A DNA stretch of 27,422 nucleotides from a virus. The stretch spans positions 1 to 27,422 of the IMG/VR virus record IMGVR_UViG_3300044645_000302; one strand, 5' to 3'. Position numbers and translations under genes: made by a program. Below the pieces are notes generated by a model. That model saw only the letters and a list, made by a program, of their open reading frames with translations. It ran no database searches and was not told the origin of the DNA. Each line of letters begins with the position of its first letter. The first letter of the stretch is position 1. This document shows, in pieces, positions 5,807 through 20,521 of the stretch.

Positions 5807-7873
5807 TTATCCTAGGGCAATAGCCATAGCTATTACAAAATCCTCATCAACGCCACCGCCACCACCAGTTGAATTGATAGTGACAGCATCTGATCCAGCA
5901 TTTGTTGTTATTGTAATGTTTGTACCAGCAACAAGAGTCAGTGTATCTGATGTAGAATCTGCAACAACATCTGATTGTCCTGCCACCGCAATGGTAGTAA
6001 ATACATTCTGATCACCAGTGTTTGTGTTAGATGATGTACCACTAAATGTTCCTGACTGAGTGGCAAGCGATCCTAGTCCAAGACCTGTTCTTGCATCTGC
6101 TGGAGACACATTTTCCCATCTTGTATTTGTTGCATTTCTCTTTAAGAAATGATCTGCCGCTATACCAGAAATAAAGACATCAGACAGTTCTTCAAGTTCC
6201 TGGTAGTTCTGGATGTGAACATCCATTTCACCAGCATTGCCGTTGTTTGCCTTGACAACAAACCCAATGAATACTCCATGATTTGGCGCAGTTGGTATTG
6301 TTGTTCTAAAGTCACCAGCGGTTGACTCTGATAGATATATGGGATCTCCATCTGTGAAGGTAGATGTTGGGAGATTATTTAACCCAGTAAGTCTACCCTT
6401 CAACATGATAAATCCATCTGCTCCGTTTGTAATATCGGTAGCAGCGACACCTATTGTGTATGCTGATGTTGCTTCGGTGTTTGCCTGTGCAAGCTCAACA
6501 GTAAGATGACTTCCTGTAGACCCAACAATGTATACTGGTCTACCCTTGGAGATTGTTCCTGCTGTACTCTTTCGTACCGCATACAGAAGTCCTTGATTCA
6601 CGGGAGATGAATATGTTCCCGTGGTTACGGTCACACCCTGTAGTGTTCCGCCAGTAACAGCAATATTATTTGCAGCTTGTGTAGCAATAGTTCCAAGACC
6701 AAGAGTTGTTCTTGCAGCCGCAGCATCAGCATCATCAATCAAAGTCAAACCAAATGCAGATGCCTGAGAGTCATCTAGTTTATTATCAAGCGCAGTCTGA
6801 AGTAAATTGACATCTGATATTGCATGAGTATGGGCAAGTGGAGTACGAGCATCAGAAAGACGAGCATCGTCCCCGACACACGCTGTAGTTGAAGTAGAAC
6901 CAAAGTTTACTGAAATAGTTCCACTAGTTGTAATAGTTCCACCACCAAGACCAGTACCAGCGGTAATAGATGTTACTGTTCCAGAACCAGCAGAAGCTGA
7001 TAGAACACTTCCAGAAATACTTAAACCAGAACCAAGTGTAAGCTCTTCTACTGTTCCTTTAGAGCCAATACCAGTTCCAACACCAAGAATGGTTTGTCGG
7101 TTTCTTGTTTCTAGCTTACCTAATGTTACTGCATTTGTTTTTATTGTTGGGTTGGGAAATGTTCCACTCAAGTCTCCACCAGCTGAACCAGTTGGTGTGA
7201 ACACTGGGTTTGTATTTACCCAGTTTGTTCCATTGAACTGAAGAACCTGTGTGTTTGTCGGACTGGAAAGAGAAACGTTGCTTAGATCGTTTAGACCAAG
7301 TGGTTCAGGTCCAGGAAGTTCGTCAGAAGTCCACGCTGAACCGCTCCATGTCAACACGTCGCCAACAGCGGGTGTTCCAGTGATAGTAACATCCCCAAGA
7401 TCTGTAAGGTTGAACGAACTAATCTTGGGTAATCCAATCGGGCTTAGTCCATCCCATGTGGTTGATCCATCACCTATTCTAATTTCATTAATGGATGTAT
7501 CATATCCAACTTCACCAGCGTTGAGAACAACGCCAGTCCAGCTAGTTCCTCTTCGTAGTTGAATTACCTGATCTGCCGATGATGGGGTTCCGCCATCTAT
7601 TGGACCACTATCAAGTTTACCATTTATGGTGGACATCAATGTAGAACTAAGTGACCAAGTGGATCCTCCACCTGATACCACGATGTCTCCATACGAACCG
7701 TTGGTTATACCAGCAGTAACATATGGAAGTATAGTCCAAGCATCGCTTCCATTTCCAACCTTTAGTTTCTTATTGGTTGTGTTGTAACCAATCTCACCAA
7801 CACCAAGTGTTGGATCTTCGTTATCCCAGTTAGTTTCGTTATCTCGTCTTATCCTAATAATGTCGTCAGCCAT
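5807..7873 (-). CDS. Large tail fibre protein (688 residues)
   Basis: A modular fibre. Two N-terminal repeats of about 45 residues (6-50 and 103-147) share the pattern I-LRR....W......GE-GY......-GDGSTTW, the small domain seen at the head of many phage fibres and tropism determinants. Next come Gly/Thr/Ser-rich shaft segments. A middle domain at about 428-570 (LLYAVRKSTAGTISKGRPVY, AYTIGVAATDI, GDPIYLSES, PNHGVFIGFVV, ELEELSDVFI) is common in tailed-phage fibres. Paired LGLGTIATQ (391-399) and LGLGSLATQ (598-606) mark repeat joints. The protein ends in a Gly run and DEDFVIAMAIALG. It probably sets receptor binding. ATG at 7873 shares a base with the preceding stop (TAATG). Confidence 0.87.
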   Translation of the reverse strand: MADDIIRIRRDNETNWDNEDPTLGVGEIGYNTTNKKLKVGNGSDAWTILPYVTAGITNGSYGDIVVSGGGSTWSLSSTLMSTINGKLDSGPIDGGTPSSADQVIQLRRGTSWTGVVLNAGEVGYDTSINEIRIGDGSTTWDGLSPIGLPKISSFNLTDLGDVTITGTPAVGDVLTWSGSAWTSDELPGPEPLGLNDLSNVSLSSPTNTQVLQFNGTNWVNTNPVFTPTGSAGGDLSGTFPNPTIKTNAVTLGKLETRNRQTILGVGTGIGSKGTVEELTLGSGLSISGSVLSASAGSGTVTSITAGTGLGGGTITTSGTISVNFGSTSTTACVGDDARLSDARTPLAHTHAISDVNLLQTALDNKLDDSQASAFGLTLIDDADAAAARTTLGLGTIATQAANNIAVTGGTLQGVTVTTGTYSSPVNQGLLYAVRKSTAGTISKGRPVYIVGSTGSHLTVELAQANTEATSAYTIGVAATDITNGADGFIMLKGRLTGLNNLPTSTFTDGDPIYLSESTAGDFRTTIPTAPNHGVFIGFVVKANNGNAGEMDVHIQNYQELEELSDVFISGIAADHFLKRNATNTRWENVSPADARTGLGLGSLATQSGTFSGTSSNTNTGDQNVFTTIAVAGQSDVVADSTSDTLTLVAGTNITITTNAGSDAVTINSTGGGGGVDEDFVIAMAIALG

Positions 7874-14771: not shown

Positions 14772-16148
14772 TTAGGCATATGGGAATGCGTCAGCAGCGG
14801 TGTTGACAACCTCGCGGGTCATGACCATGAGTGTACGCAAAGCCTGACGAGCCTTGGAGGCTGGTTCGCCGCCGCTACCCGCGCCGACAACTGCCGTGCA
14901 GATATTCACATTGTTTGCTGGAACGCCACCAGTAACGAAGAAAAGATCTACGGTTGCCTTTGTTGAACCAACAATCAGAGCTTCAGTCTGGGTTGTAGCA
15001 CTGGAAAGGGTGTTTGTGACGGTTGGCTTGACCAATACAGCGGCGCACTCTGGACGAAGAACGCCAGTACCAGCCATCATGCTTGCAACGGTGAAGGTTG
15101 TGTTGCGACGAATGTCATCAACGGTATCAACCTTTAGACCCTGAAGCTTGAGAGCAGCGACTGCGCTTCTCTGGAAGAGAAGACCGCAGATACCAGCATC
15201 ACCGAAGGTGAGATTATAGCGAGCCTCACCGATACCAGTTGTGTTTGCAAATGGGAGGTGGTTGCTCTTGATAATGCGAACACCCATGTACTCAAGTGAG
15301 TCTGTTAGGTTGTTCATACCCTGAGTCAACGCAGCGCCAAGACCGCCAGCGGCAGCAACACCACCAAAGAGTGGCTGACTATATACTGCGGTTGTGTCGG
15401 TTCTAGCAACACCAAGAGCGCGAATGTCTTGGAATGTTCTCGGGTCTACAGCAAGGTATACACCATCGGTTGGTGCGTTGATTTCCTGTAGGTAAACAAC
15501 GAAATCTTCGCAAGCCTTGAGTGCCTCAAGTGCTGCGGCTGATCTCTGAGCGTTAGTAGAAGCCGATCTACCGAGATCAAAGAAGAGTGGATTGATGAAG
15601 ACTGGACCCGAACGAAGAGCTCTTGGATCTGCACCAACATAGATTGCTGGAGTACCATCACCATCGTAATTGGAGTTGTAGTTTAGATCCTCAGCGGCAG
15701 CGCGAGCAATATAAGCAGCGATCTGCTTATCGCGGGCATTGCCAAGGGTCATACCAGCCTGACGGGCAAGCTCCGAGCGGAACTCCCATTGGGTCTGCAT
15801 GAGGTCAACATTGTCAATCTCAAAGTGAGCAGCGATTGGACGCTTGTCAAGCTTGATTGCAATGGTTGCTGATGCGCTGTCGGTAGTTGAACCAACAAGC
15901 TCAATACCCGCGTTCCAAGCAGCGTTCAACGCAACGGTACCCGTGACTGGGAACTCCATTGCAACGCCGCTTGAGATGGTCTTTGAGTCAACAAGAGACT
16001 CAAACATGTTGTACTCGTCGTAAGCATGGATGGTTTCACCACTCCAAATGCTTAGCCAAAGCTTGTTTGCACCCGCGATTGGGCCAGAAAGGCCAGCAGC
16101 TACATCTGTTCTATATGGGAGATTGTCTGCCAAAATATTATCGGGCAT
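14772..16148 (-). CDS. Major capsid protein, T7 gp10A-like
   Basis: A 458-residue HK97-fold capsid protein. The N-terminal part follows the T7 gp10 pattern: LWLSIWSGETIHAYDEYNMF, then DSKTISSGVAMEFPVTGTV, ELVGSTT, DKRPIAAHFEIDNVDLMQTQ and RSELARQAGMTLGNARDKQI. The middle has the SLEYMGVRIIKSNHLPF segment typical of gp10 (here near 285-301). It is longer than T7 gp10A (345), with roughly 80 extra residues at the C-terminus after RPECAAVLVKP, which may act as a built-in decoration. ATG at 16148 follows AAGGAATAAAAC. A terminator closes the unit. I see no signs of a gp10B-type frameshift site, though a slippage site cannot be excluded by eye. Confidence 0.94.
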   Translation of the reverse strand: MPDNILADNLPYRTDVAAGLSGPIAGANKLWLSIWSGETIHAYDEYNMFESLVDSKTISSGVAMEFPVTGTVALNAAWNAGIELVGSTTDSASATIAIKLDKRPIAAHFEIDNVDLMQTQWEFRSELARQAGMTLGNARDKQIAAYIARAAAEDLNYNSNYDGDGTPAIYVGADPRALRSGPVFINPLFFDLGRSASTNAQRSAAALEALKACEDFVVYLQEINAPTDGVYLAVDPRTFQDIRALGVARTDTTAVYSQPLFGGVAAAGGLGAALTQGMNNLTDSLEYMGVRIIKSNHLPFANTTGIGEARYNLTFGDAGICGLLFQRSAVAALKLQGLKVDTVDDIRRNTTFTVASMMAGTGVLRPECAAVLVKPTVTNTLSSATTQTEALIVGSTKATVDLFFVTGGVPANNVNICTAVVGAGSGGEPASKARQALRTLMVMTREVVNTAADAFPYA

Positions 16149-16158
16149 GTTTTATTCC

Positions 16159-17040
16159 TTATCGTAATGAATTGAAGTTTGTTCGTGACATCCGTAGTTC
16201 TACGGCCTGTCTGAATTTTGGATCGGACTTGAATCGTGGATCCGATCTCTCTGTGTAGAACTCAGCCTTGCTTGAGTACGGTAGGTTGTTGATTGCCGCA
16301 TTAGTAGCAGAAACCCCAACCTTTGTACCAGCCCTAGCTGGTTCGTTTGCTGTTACCTTGCTGGATTGAGCAGCGTCGTACTTGCTCTTAAGACCCAGTA
16401 AGGTAACTTCCCATGAAGGTGTTGCAAGCGATGCGTTGATCGTAGCCTGTTCCTGCTTGGACAAGTTCTTGCTAGCCCAGTCAAAGACCTTGGCTAGCGT
16501 ATCCTTGCCACCAACTCGGTTGGCTGCTTCTCCGTATGCTTGCTGTAGGCGGGCCTTCTGTCCCTGCATAAAATCATCAATCACAAAGTCTGGGACATTA
16601 AGCTTGGCCTTGATTGCGTTACGGGATTCTGGTGTCAGATCTCCGTTAACGGTAAACTCGGTCGCATACTTTGCCCACTCTTCTTGTGTCAATAGGTTTT
16701 GTGCTGCCTGTACAGGTTGCTCCTGCTGCTTATCGGGAATCCGAAGTTCCTCTGGAATCTGTGGAACAGGTTCCACGGGTTGCTCCTGAGCTTTGGTTTC
16801 CTGAGCAGGAATCTGCTTTTTTAGTTCTGAGATCTCTTGTCGTGCCTTGGTGTATTCGCTTTGAGCTGACTTGAGCGCGTTAAACCAGTCACCAGCTGAC
16901 TTGAAGTTTGCTGGGACTTGTACATTGTTTGCGTTTACATAAGTCTCGAAAGCCTTTGCCTCATTGGCAACGACAGGATCTTGTGCAACCGCTGATTGTT
17001 CAACCTGTGGTTGAGTCGTTGGTTCGTTTGTTTGTTCCAT
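16159..17040 (-). CDS. Capsid assembly scaffolding protein, T7 gp9-like
   Basis: A 293-residue acidic, Gln/Glu/Pro-rich protein without transmembrane spans, close to T7 gp9 (307) in length and place, directly before the capsid gene. The N-terminal half is disordered-looking with Gln-Pro repeats (EQPVEPVPQIPEEL). The C-terminal stretch, YSSKAEFYTERSDPRFKSDP followed by FRQAVELRM, matches the gp9-family C-terminal capsid-binding helix pattern (Y-S-AE-----DPR---D--FR--V--R). ATG at 17040 has only a weak ribosome binding site (AGAAACAGAAT), three bases after the stop of the preceding gene. Confidence 0.9.
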   Translation of the reverse strand: MEQTNEPTTQPQVEQSAVAQDPVVANEAKAFETYVNANNVQVPANFKSAGDWFNALKSAQSEYTKARQEISELKKQIPAQETKAQEQPVEPVPQIPEELRIPDKQQEQPVQAAQNLLTQEEWAKYATEFTVNGDLTPESRNAIKAKLNVPDFVIDDFMQGQKARLQQAYGEAANRVGGKDTLAKVFDWASKNLSKQEQATINASLATPSWEVTLLGLKSKYDAAQSSKVTANEPARAGTKVGVSATNAAINNLPYSSKAEFYTERSDPRFKSDPKFRQAVELRMSRTNFNSLR

Positions 17041-17043
17041 TTT

Positions 17044-18042
17044 TTATTCTGTTTCTAAAGATTGATTAAAAAGTCTAAGTTTGTATTGACTGGACCCAGC
17101 TGTTCTTCTTCTAACTTCAGCCCCCACATAGGCAGCAAAGCCAAAGCTTGGTGGTTCTCCAGGAATTTCGCCACTGTCTGTTGGCGCGGAGTATATGAGG
17201 TTTTTAATAACCTTTTGAACTCCATCATCCATGATGAACTGCGGGCTATCTGTATAGCTACACGAAAAGACAACGCTGTTGTTGATTAGCCAAATTGCTG
17301 TTTTTCCAAAATCTTCGATTCTTATTTCAAGGTTTGTTTTGGATTGTACTGGATAGTTTGTATCTTTAAACAACACTTCATTAAATGGTTTCGTGACACT
17401 GTCGGTCGTTGAGAACCAACGACAGCGCCAGTTTCCAAATGAGTTTGGTGTAAAGATACAACCCTTTTCGCAGTTATATGTAGTTGGGGAAGTACCAGCT
17501 GAGTGGTTTCCATGAAACCCAAGAATAAGAGCATTGCTGTTCCACAAAGAAAAATCAAAATTAGCGACTTCTGCTGTGGCTTTGTATATAGATGTTTTGT
17601 AGCTGTAAGAAGTCCAAACATCCGCAGCTAGTGTTCCAAACGTTTCGTTTTCGTTTATAACCCTAGCTCTAGAGTTGTTTGTTCCAGCCAAGTCTGTACT
17701 TATTTCGATATATTGTGGATTTGTGGTATCGACAATCCCGTTAGTGGCAGACTGACTGAACATTGTATTGACGTTGTTTCCAGTCTGGCTATTTTGAACT
17801 GTGTATGAAACGGTATCTACTATTGTTTCTTTAATCCGAAAGGACATATCATAAGGTTTATTAGACCCGTTTAGGGTTAACAACCCATTCAATGTTTCTC
17901 TTGCTGCTGAAAGAGTTGGATAGATACCAATCAGTTTTGTTTTGTTTGCTTTAAGCAGTACGCCGTTTTTAGTAATCAAATAATCAGCCGTATAAATACC
18001 TCTGATATCTGGCCTACATGTAGCTAGTCTTTCATAGGACAT
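17044..18042 (-). CDS. Unrecognised protein between portal and scaffold, jelly-roll/lectin-like C-terminal half
   Basis: A 332-residue protein that has no counterpart in T7 at this position. An N-terminal part of about 70 residues (YERLATCRPDIRGIYTADYL, then YPTLSAARETLNGLL) precedes a beta-rich region. The later part reads like a concanavalin A-type jelly roll: WTSYSYKTSIYKATAEVANF, NALILGFHGN, FGNWRCRWFS, then NLEIRIEDFGKTAIWLINNS (the 'strand - turn - W--N---V' pattern) and SFGFAAYVGAEVRRRTAG. Four Cys residues lie in its second half. ATG at 18042 follows AAGGAAATAGATC. A capsid decoration or glycan-binding role is inference from fold impression and place in the head operon. I do not recognise a family. 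Confidence 0.7.
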   Translation of the reverse strand: MSYERLATCRPDIRGIYTADYLITKNGVLLKANKTKLIGIYPTLSAARETLNGLLTLNGSNKPYDMSFRIKETIVDTVSYTVQNSQTGNNVNTMFSQSATNGIVDTTNPQYIEISTDLAGTNNSRARVINENETFGTLAADVWTSYSYKTSIYKATAEVANFDFSLWNSNALILGFHGNHSAGTSPTTYNCEKGCIFTPNSFGNWRCRWFSTTDSVTKPFNEVLFKDTNYPVQSKTNLEIRIEDFGKTAIWLINNSVVFSCSYTDSPQFIMDDGVQKVIKNLIYSAPTDSGEIPGEPPSFGFAAYVGAEVRRRTAGSSQYKLRLFNQSLETE

Positions 18043-18053
18043 GATCTATTTCC

Positions 18054-19619
18054 TTAAACGCCTAAAGCATTTGTAATTGTTTGCTGAGCCACTGGTGACT
18101 GTAGGGCCGTTTGAGTTGCTGAGCCAGCAGCCTGAGCCATAGACGAGCCAATGGCTCCAGCCGTGGTCTGTGCCGTTGCGTTTTGCATCTGTTGCATTTG
18201 CTGTGCGGCCTGTAACTCTGCTACTTCTTCTTCAGATTTAACCCACTTACGAGGATCAAACCCTAGAGACGTAATTAACTCTGACGCATAAGCATCCCAC
18301 CTAAAAGTTGAAATAGCTTCTGGTGGCAAATTTCGTACCATTTCACCAAGCTGCATCAGTTTCTGTAGATCTGAATCCCTGCTAAGGGCCTGTAGTCCAG
18401 TTAGTATGTGAACACTAAGGGTTCCGTCTTCATGAAAGAACTGCTCTTCAAGTTCTTCTTCCAACAAACCTTCTTGAAGCATTTGAACAATGCAACGTAA
18501 AACAATTGGTTCCATCATTGTTCTGGCTATGGCACTAAAAGCACCGCCAAGAACAGTCTCTAGTTCCGAACCAATCATTCTTACTGCTGTTGCGGTCACG
18601 CGATCCCCGCTTGGAATTGCCTGACCCGTCATCAGAAAAGCCTGACCTATTTCTCTTCGCATTGTCTCAACAGCGTTGGCTGATGCCGAAATCTGAGGAG
18701 ACATGGTAGCAGCTGGCGAGATCACGAAGACATCGGCCTGTCTTGCTGAAACAAACGATCCGTTTCTCATTGTCGCAATATCGTCTACTTCCGTTATTCC
18801 GCTGGGATCAATGGCAATCCAAAAAGCAGAAGCTGCTGCTAGACCTTCTATCTGAGATTTTGTATAGGATTCAAGAGAGATTAGATCTCCCATTATATCT
18901 TCGCAGTGAGATCGTGCATAGTTTTCTCCAGGAATAGAGAACCAGCGAAGAACCGCGAAAGGCGGAACAACAAATGTTCCATCTTCTACCAGCTCTCCCT
19001 TCGAGTTTTCTTTTGAGAAAGCCCAATTACCATCTTCTGTCTTTATGTACTGACAATAGAAAGTCTCAAACCCCTGACGGTACTCTATAGATGATTGATC
19101 ATACCGTATGTCGTCTGGATCTATCGGCTCATACTCAAGATGAATAACCTCAATAACTTCTCCCATTATGTCACGCTGAACCACATACTGATCTAGTCTG
19201 TAGTTTGTAAAGAAGTATCTATCGTCCACCATCATCAATACATCACCAGTGATTATTAGGTGCTGTAGTGCTTGAAATGTTGACTCTCTTAGATTTGTGG
19301 ATATCAGTTTCTTATAGACCTGATTTGCTGTACCTTCTAAGTAGGCGTTTACTTCATGCGGAGATTCTGACCCGTCCTTAAGCATGAACTTAAAGAACGG
19401 TGTATCGTTTAGAGGAATTAGCGCAGACAGAATACGAGAGGCTAGTGCAGTAACTCCTCTGCTTGCAACACTAGAGTATGGCTGTGGGAGGGATCTTCCC
19501 TCCTCCCACGACTCTGGTGGCAAGATTGTTGGAATGGTAATTTGAGAACACTGGCGCGCTCTATCTAGCTTTGATGTTCTATGAGAGTCTAACAGCCTAA
19601 AGCGTTCTCTTAGGTTCAT
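18054..19619 (-). CDS. Portal protein, T7 gp8-like
   Basis: A 521-residue head-to-tail connector (T7 gp8 is 536). N-terminal hallmarks are LRERFRLLDSHRTSKLDRAR, then CSQITIPTILPPES and SVASRGVTALASRILSALIP with LNDTPFFKF, the gp8 family pattern. The middle GDVLMMVDDRYFFTNYRLDQ and C-terminal MTGQAIPSGDRVTATAVRMI and LETVLGGAFS also match the family. The C-terminus is Gln/Ala-rich (QAAQQMQQMQNATAQTT). ATG at 19619 overlaps the stop of the preceding gene (ATGA), with GGAGAAGCCGCT before it. Confidence 0.95.
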   Translation of the reverse strand: MNLRERFRLLDSHRTSKLDRARQCSQITIPTILPPESWEEGRSLPQPYSSVASRGVTALASRILSALIPLNDTPFFKFMLKDGSESPHEVNAYLEGTANQVYKKLISTNLRESTFQALQHLIITGDVLMMVDDRYFFTNYRLDQYVVQRDIMGEVIEVIHLEYEPIDPDDIRYDQSSIEYRQGFETFYCQYIKTEDGNWAFSKENSKGELVEDGTFVVPPFAVLRWFSIPGENYARSHCEDIMGDLISLESYTKSQIEGLAAASAFWIAIDPSGITEVDDIATMRNGSFVSARQADVFVISPAATMSPQISASANAVETMRREIGQAFLMTGQAIPSGDRVTATAVRMIGSELETVLGGAFSAIARTMMEPIVLRCIVQMLQEGLLEEELEEQFFHEDGTLSVHILTGLQALSRDSDLQKLMQLGEMVRNLPPEAISTFRWDAYASELITSLGFDPRKWVKSEEEVAELQAAQQMQQMQNATAQTTAGAIGSSMAQAAGSATQTALQSPVAQQTITNALGV

Positions 19620-19954: not shown

Positions 19955-20521
19955 CTACAGAGGTTTCTCTGTGTAAGTAGCTTGTCTATAGGAACCCTGC
20001 TCAAGTTCCTCAAGCTGTTTCTTTTTGGTTAGCAAGAACTTTTGATTAGCTTCTTCATTTCTTTTTTGAAGAGCTGACAGTTCTTGTTGTAATTTGGTTT
20101 CATAAGATGTTGATGCCGTTTGATAGTCTTCAAAGCTATATTGTCTTTCTAGTATAGCTTTAGCCTCTTGACCAACAGCAAAGATGTTTCCACGCTTACT
20201 GGTGTCTTTCTTTAAGATATCTTCAAAAGACATTCTGTTTCCAAACCGATCCAACACTCTATAGACACCCATTGATTTGTTCGTAATGGGGTCTATAAAA
20301 GATGGAAGAAAGGCTTTATTGTTTTCTCTCTTTGCTTTTTCGGCTGCTTCAAATCTTTTTTCCCAGCTTTGTTTAAGCTTATCAAGTTCCTTGCTTTCTT
20401 GTAGCATTTTTGCTTGATATGCTGCTGCTGTGTCTCTATAGAAAATACCAAGATTTCCTAGTTGCTCTTCCTTAAAAAGAGATTCTCGTAGGATAGCAGC
20501 CTTTGCTTTATTGTTTTGCAT
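19955..20521 (-). CDS. Unrecognised helical protein (188 residues)
   Basis: The product starts MQNNKAKAAILRESLFKEEQ and is strongly charged and helical at both ends: 30-68 (YQAKMLQESKELDKLKQSW) and 135-175 (SYETKLQQELSALQKRNEE, LLTKKKQLEELEQGS). Both have coiled-coil spacing. Between them is a non-repetitive core (FLPSFIDPITNKSMGVYRVL, FGNRMSFEDILKKD). No family is recognised. ATG at 20521 has GGAGAAGGCGA before it and overlaps the preceding gene by 14 bases. Lying just ahead of the portal-gene cluster, it may be a minor virion or assembly factor; this is guesswork. Confidence 0.75.
   Translation of the reverse strand: MQNNKAKAAILRESLFKEEQLGNLGIFYRDTAAAYQAKMLQESKELDKLKQSWEKRFEAAEKAKRENNKAFLPSFIDPITNKSMGVYRVLDRFGNRMSFEDILKKDTSKRGNIFAVGQEAKAILERQYSFEDYQTASTSYETKLQQELSALQKRNEEANQKFLLTKKKQLEELEQGSYRQATYTEKPL

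Follow-up and report, generated by a model that had tools for sequence, protein, structure and literature searches.

A candidate surface adhesin encoded at a variable locus between the portal and scaffold genes of uncultured T7-like phages

The gene between portal and scaffold

The analysed window was a stretch of 27,422 nucleotides (IMG/VR record IMGVR_UViG_3300044645_000302, positions 1 to 27,422), a contig of an uncultured T7-like phage with most of its genes on the minus strand. One gene, here called the slot gene, was located between the genes for the portal and the scaffold protein. The relevant features were as follows:

14772..16148, minus strand: major capsid protein with hypervariable patches, a possible partner of the slot protein's N-terminal domain (phrog_267, PF21703, conservation profile)
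16159..17040, minus strand: scaffold protein, the downstream border of the slot (phrog_1052, E 1e-21; PF05396, E 4e-7)
17044..18042, minus strand: slot gene, 332 amino acids, candidate surface adhesin (ORF preceded by a ribosome-binding site; homologues at the equivalent position of relatives)
17047..17811, minus strand: exchangeable C-terminal domain, residues ~78-332, predicted concanavalin-A-like jelly roll (AlphaFold2 and Foldseek; homologous only to the slot proteins of L013 and L024/L025)
17827..18042, minus strand: residues 1-72, forming the conserved N-terminal domain (seen in alignments A2 and A6; profile E 6e-16; two AlphaFold2 models)
18050..18055, minus strand: AAGGAA, the slot gene's ribosome-binding site, which overlaps the stop codon of the portal gene (sequence)
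18054..19619, minus strand: portal (head-tail connector), the upstream border of the slot (phrog_449, E 3e-101; PF12236)

The slot ORF, read on the minus strand from 18042 to 17044, began with ATG and had 332 codons. The preliminary description had given no strand, and many stops interrupted the opposite one here. The AAGGAA motif was separated from the ATG by 7 bases. Both borders were tight: the gene started 11 bases beyond the portal stop, and its own stop lay 3 bases ahead of the scaffold ATG. Shuffling the bases of the gene never kept the 332-codon frame open (0 of 2000 shuffles), and homologues of comparable length existed at 41% and 27-30% identity; therefore, we considered the ORF to be a real gene. 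All of this, together with the families of the neighbours, agreed with the preliminary description, in which a 332-residue protein with a good ribosome-binding site was placed between the portal and scaffold genes. A second contig, L001 (IMGVR_UViG_3300044619_000207), carried the same slot gene base for base and was 99.7-99.8% identical to the window across 13-17 kb.

It had also been stated that the portal gene adjoins the scaffold gene in T7-like phages. We compared this gap in eight reference T7-like records, and the statement held in T7, P-SSP7, Syn5, S-SBP1, HTVC168P, Lau218 and MedDCM-OCT-S45-C18; in LUZ100, there was at most a 52-codon ORF between the two genes.

The G+C content of the slot gene was 0.39, compared with 0.45-0.51 in its neighbours. 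Recent acquisition was considered as the cause and rejected, since the slot gene was lower in G+C than both of its neighbours at all 15 loci compared. Thus, low G+C was a property of the slot and not a sign of recent transfer.

Two other genes of the window are worth recording. The first, a 188-aa gene upstream of the portal (19955-20521, minus strand), was the second fast-changing gene: it belonged to no Pfam family and had 43% identity to its counterpart in L003, compared with 86-97% for nearby genes. The second encoded a 688-aa tail protein (5807-7873, minus strand) with two matches to the N-terminal domain of the major tropism determinant (PF18454, E 3e-24).

Two predicted domains of the slot protein

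The slot protein had been described as belonging to no recognised family. Accordingly, direct searches of Pfam, PHROGs, PDB sequences and INPHARED (tblastn, 50,697 phage records) returned no match, and tblastn of the L003, L013 and L024 slot proteins against INPHARED gave nothing meaningful. Used as profiles against PDB sequences, the alignments of the ConA-type proteins and of the N-terminal domain produced matches at chance level only, as did the latter against Pfam, where these were scattered; the ConA-type profile found nothing in genome contigs. The phage itself was also distant from isolates, the closest isolate portal among the 50,697 records being 32% identical. When genome contigs were searched with the portal alignment, the single match was weak (29%, in an Opitutaceae MAG) and gave no information on the host.

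The N-terminal ~70 residues had been proposed to form a separate part. They did so, and they proved to be the single conserved portion of the whole family of slot genes. In the nearer clade of relatives, the first gene past the portal always opened with this domain, ~75 residues in length (alignment A6). A profile built exclusively from members with Ig-like or tailspike-like C-terminal parts recovered the window protein (E 6e-16), L024 (E 1e-15) and L013 (E 6e-33), and no other ORF at the ~90 loci searched scored below E 6. The predicted domain (residues 3-67) consisted of a short helix, strands at residues 18-24, 27-32 and 36-41, and helices at 44-57 and 63-67, and its topology was alike in the AlphaFold2 models m7ee60b1a1889 and m9e2176cecb7e. 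Three strands followed by a helix may resemble the AP2/integrase-arm DNA-binding domains, a likeness on which we base no conclusion. We regard this part as a previously undescribed small domain that would serve as an anchor.

For the rest of the protein, a jelly-roll or concanavalin-A-like character had been suggested, partly from a W-L-INNS string that was indeed present at residues 251-256. The structure prediction and fold comparison supported this suggestion. The AlphaFold2 model (pTM 0.80, mean pLDDT 71) was computed from a shallow alignment (A7: 17 rows, four of them full-length, two of these nearly identical) and placed a large beta-sandwich across residues ~71-332. Over the five models pLDDT ranged from 50 to 71, and residues 285-302 and several loops were unreliable. 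The best Foldseek match in the PDB was the PL7 alginate lyase A1-II' (2z42; E 1.6e-7, probability 1.00), and GH16 glucanases and the VIP36 lectin were also matched; at E <= 0.001 the PDB yielded 229 matches, headed by ConA-like enzymes and lectins. In a viral library, ConA-like lectin/glucanase proteins of uncultured phages were matched at E 2e-8. The TM-scores were moderate (0.3-0.55), so that the comparison backed the fold class and not its details. Thus, the predicted structure was a two-sheet antiparallel jelly-roll sandwich of the concanavalin A-like lectin/glucanase fold, and no close homologue was annotated as an enzyme or as a head-tail protein; both outcomes that the preliminary description had named as refuting it were absent.

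A motif search of the three ConA-type homologues (the window protein, L013 and L024) recovered none of the catalytic signatures of PL7 (RxExR, Q[IVL]H, YxKxGxYxQ) and no GH16 signature (ExDxE); the C-terminal domain was likelier to be a binder than an enzyme. A sugar-binding site was not identified in the slot protein, which counts against the adhesin proposed below.

Exchange of the slot gene among relatives

We gathered ~90 uncultured relatives with alignments of the portal, the scaffold and the N-terminal domain. The portal-scaffold interval was between 439 and about 5,600 bases long, and it was occupied in all close relatives for which both borders were complete. Even among relatives with 89-99% identical portals, the slot proteins had only the first ~75 residues in common. 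Behind this shared domain, an Ig-like sandwich was assigned in L003, L004, L008, L012, L014, L016, L020, L026-L028, L031, L033 and L110, where L003 was modelled and the other members were assigned by alignment with it. In Foldseek, the AlphaFold2 model of L003 (pLDDT 79) matched pilins, chaperones, FimH and GH123 accessory domains. The ConA-type part was present in the window, L013 and L024/L025 and had no sequence similarity to the Ig-type part. A third variety was the 1,125-residue slot protein of L022, in which ~1,000 residues behind the N-terminal domain comprised a tailspike-like stretch (phrog_4577 'tail protein', E 1.5e-6) and an Ig-like end resembling L020.

Some intervals contained additional genes. 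A second slot gene of 566-578 aa (2852-4588 in L024, 3378-5078 in L014, with counterparts in L017 and L025-L032) had no match in Pfam, PHROG or PDB sequences; its strongly conserved acidic and aromatic motifs looked glycosidase-like by eye. In the wider group (L036-L096), the interval held basic cysteine-rich proteins of 99-101 aa and relatives of the phrog_5939 'tail protein'. L054 had an Mtd_N protein in this place, and SGNH-hydrolase-like motifs were noticed by eye in L054, L060 and L064. The slot may thus be a cargo site in a far larger group.

The distribution of the modules did not follow the portal tree. The ConA type appeared in three separate placements, each next to Ig-type neighbours, and three changes of module type were forced even when only well-supported branches were counted. 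At the DNA level, the similarity between the window and L003 broke off within the final ~40 bases of the portal gene, to resume at the scaffold start codon; the portals of these two phages were 92% and the scaffolds 96% identical, and the C-terminal parts of their slot proteins were unrelated. A sharper case was the pair L024 and L028, with ~99% identical portal and scaffold proteins. Their DNA was 96.4% identical up to base 1843, next to the portal stop at 1842, and 96.9% identical from base 2841, next to the slot-gene stop at 2840, with nothing alignable between these two points. Here, the slot gene had been exchanged almost gene-exactly.

Assembly chimeras were considered as the source of such swaps and were rejected, since L025 came from a different metagenome and carried the same 7.8 kb as L024 at 99.8%, and since L001 was a second contig with the slot gene of the window base for base.

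The N-terminal domain indicated what had been moved. That of the window was closest to the one in L024 (49% identity, compared with 35% to L003), yet the portals of the window and L024 were only 68% identical, so that whole alleles have moved between lineages. For L013, the most similar N-terminal domain came from within its own clade (L012, 62%), pointing to exchange of the C-terminal part alone. The slot gene of the window is thus one allele of an exchangeable slot, a point that the preliminary description had missed. It seems that this virus group swaps "sticky" domains of the surface at this locus in the way that other phages swap tail fibres.

Proposed function and comparison with known systems

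On balance, we favour the reading that the slot protein is a virion surface adhesin, with an N-terminal dock most likely on the head shell and an exchangeable C-terminal module of glycan-binding type. In this model, the adhesin would be produced from the late head operon and co-translated with the head genes. Its ~72-residue N-terminal domain would be the fixed part that docks it to the virion, with the head shell as the likeliest site, and the C-terminal ~255 residues, as a ConA-like jelly roll, would bind glycans of cells, slime or particles. In relatives, the type of N-terminal domain is retained and the module behind it is replaced, be it an Ig-like sandwich, a ConA-like jelly roll or a long part resembling a tailspike. 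The recombination responsible would have its borders where the portal gene ends and the scaffold gene starts. A head-mounted adhesin is favoured by the location of the gene within the head operon and by the short gaps to both neighbours. Homologues of the slot protein were absent from isolates, proteomes and virion structures, so that its location on the virion is what we infer.

The major capsid protein was ~95% conserved across the window, L003 and L004 outside the hypervariable patches (alignment columns 151-210, 241-270 and 391-475), which were probably surface loops and the C-terminus. Such patches would be expected if the outer surfaces were under diversifying pressure and are thus in favour of the adhesin. 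In L024 and L028, the capsid proteins were 92% identical and the N-terminal domains only 28%, which disfavoured a tight and specific capsid interface but was still compatible with an interface kept by the fold.

It is possible, if rather unlikely, that the same modular adhesin is carried on the collar, portal or tail instead of the capsid shell, in the manner of 936 neck-passage proteins or accessory tailspikes. The slot gene adjoins the portal, the long form in L022 is tailspike-like, and for the neck-passage protein of TP901-1, expression together with the capsid has been reported and attachment to the portal proposed (PMC6669499). The 936 proteins also combine a near-constant N-terminal part with exchangeable CBM, beta-helix or esterase-type C-terminal parts (PMC6669499). 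However, the slot protein had no T7 tail-fibre N-terminal domain by Pfam, the tail-fibre candidates of this phage lay downstream of the tail genes and lacked the N-terminal domain of the slot protein, and a BppU-like beta-sandwich was absent from that domain in both models. We find it quite unlikely that the protein is a non-virion or internal one, such as an assembly factor or neutral cargo located in the head operon by chance. In more distant relatives the slot does have other cargo, for example the small basic cysteine-rich proteins, and yet the folds were typical of adhesins, the slot was rapidly exchanged while the assembly genes stayed 96-99% identical, and the N-terminus had by eye no obvious secretion signal. 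A particle-borne polysaccharide-degrading lyase or glucanase is very improbable given the missing catalytic motifs, despite the PL7 and GH16 enzymes among the top structural matches and the long tailspike-like or tail-protein-like genes in other slots of the group.

Returning to the head-mounted adhesin, we propose, more tentatively, that the portal-scaffold interval is a dedicated slot for swapping whole glycan-directed modules (lectin-like, Ig-like or tailspike-like) on a common undescribed head anchor. Such swapping would be the equivalent, on the head, of the exchange of tail fibres, and the ConA-like proteins would form a new class of decoration protein. A 2020 review listed five structurally characterised folds of viral decoration proteins, namely beta-tulip, beta-tadpole, OB, Ig-like and knotted helix (PMC7602432), and the ConA-like fold was missing from that list. 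If confirmed, our proposal would thus add a decoration-protein fold and a small anchor domain, and provide a natural case of near base-exact exchange of head-surface modules with the capsid machinery otherwise ~99% identical. It would also allow one to test whether environmental sticking is tuned independently of the host-receptor choice made by the tail.

The plan of a constant anchor and a variable display domain is that of known decoration and collar proteins, which favours the adhesin, and the slot protein follows it if the N-terminal domain anchors as proposed. T5 pb10 has a conserved ~75-residue N-terminal domain of five alpha-helices and a less conserved Ig-like C-terminal display domain (PMC5292684). 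The slot protein has an N-terminal domain of similar size, and most relatives here share the Ig-like display; however, strands were predicted in both models of this domain (three strands and a helix) in place of an all-alpha bundle, the display part of the window protein is ConA-like, and there was no sequence match. T4 Hoc and Hoc-like proteins have a conserved capsid-binding domain, usually C-terminal, and strings of Ig domains for display, while in phage PG7 the binding domain is N-terminal, as proposed for the slot protein, and the C-terminal part is of GDSL-lipase type (PMC10385173). No sequence match to Hoc was found. The 936 neck-passage proteins draw their C-terminal part from several carbohydrate-binding or beta-helix folds, but belong to siphophages, sit at the collar, are 500-900 residues long and have a BppU-like N-terminal domain and a coiled coil (PMC6669499), neither of which was seen in the slot-protein model. 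Nearest in phage type is the T7-like Vibrio phage Peru-2, whose Ig-like P2_50 is located on capsid vertices and is thought to help adsorption (PMC13320782). Like the T3/T7 minor capsid proteins, P2_50 is an extra Ig-like head protein, showing that T7-type heads can bear such proteins; it is not ConA-like and, judging from the protein numbers (portal P2_33, capsid P2_35), it is encoded far from the portal-scaffold border. The slot protein would work like pb10, Hoc and the lactococcal neck-passage proteins but is a member of none of these by the features tested. The anchor-plus-display plan is already known; the combination of ConA display, an undescribed anchor and a portal-scaffold exchange slot in T7-like phages was not found in the open-licence literature searched.
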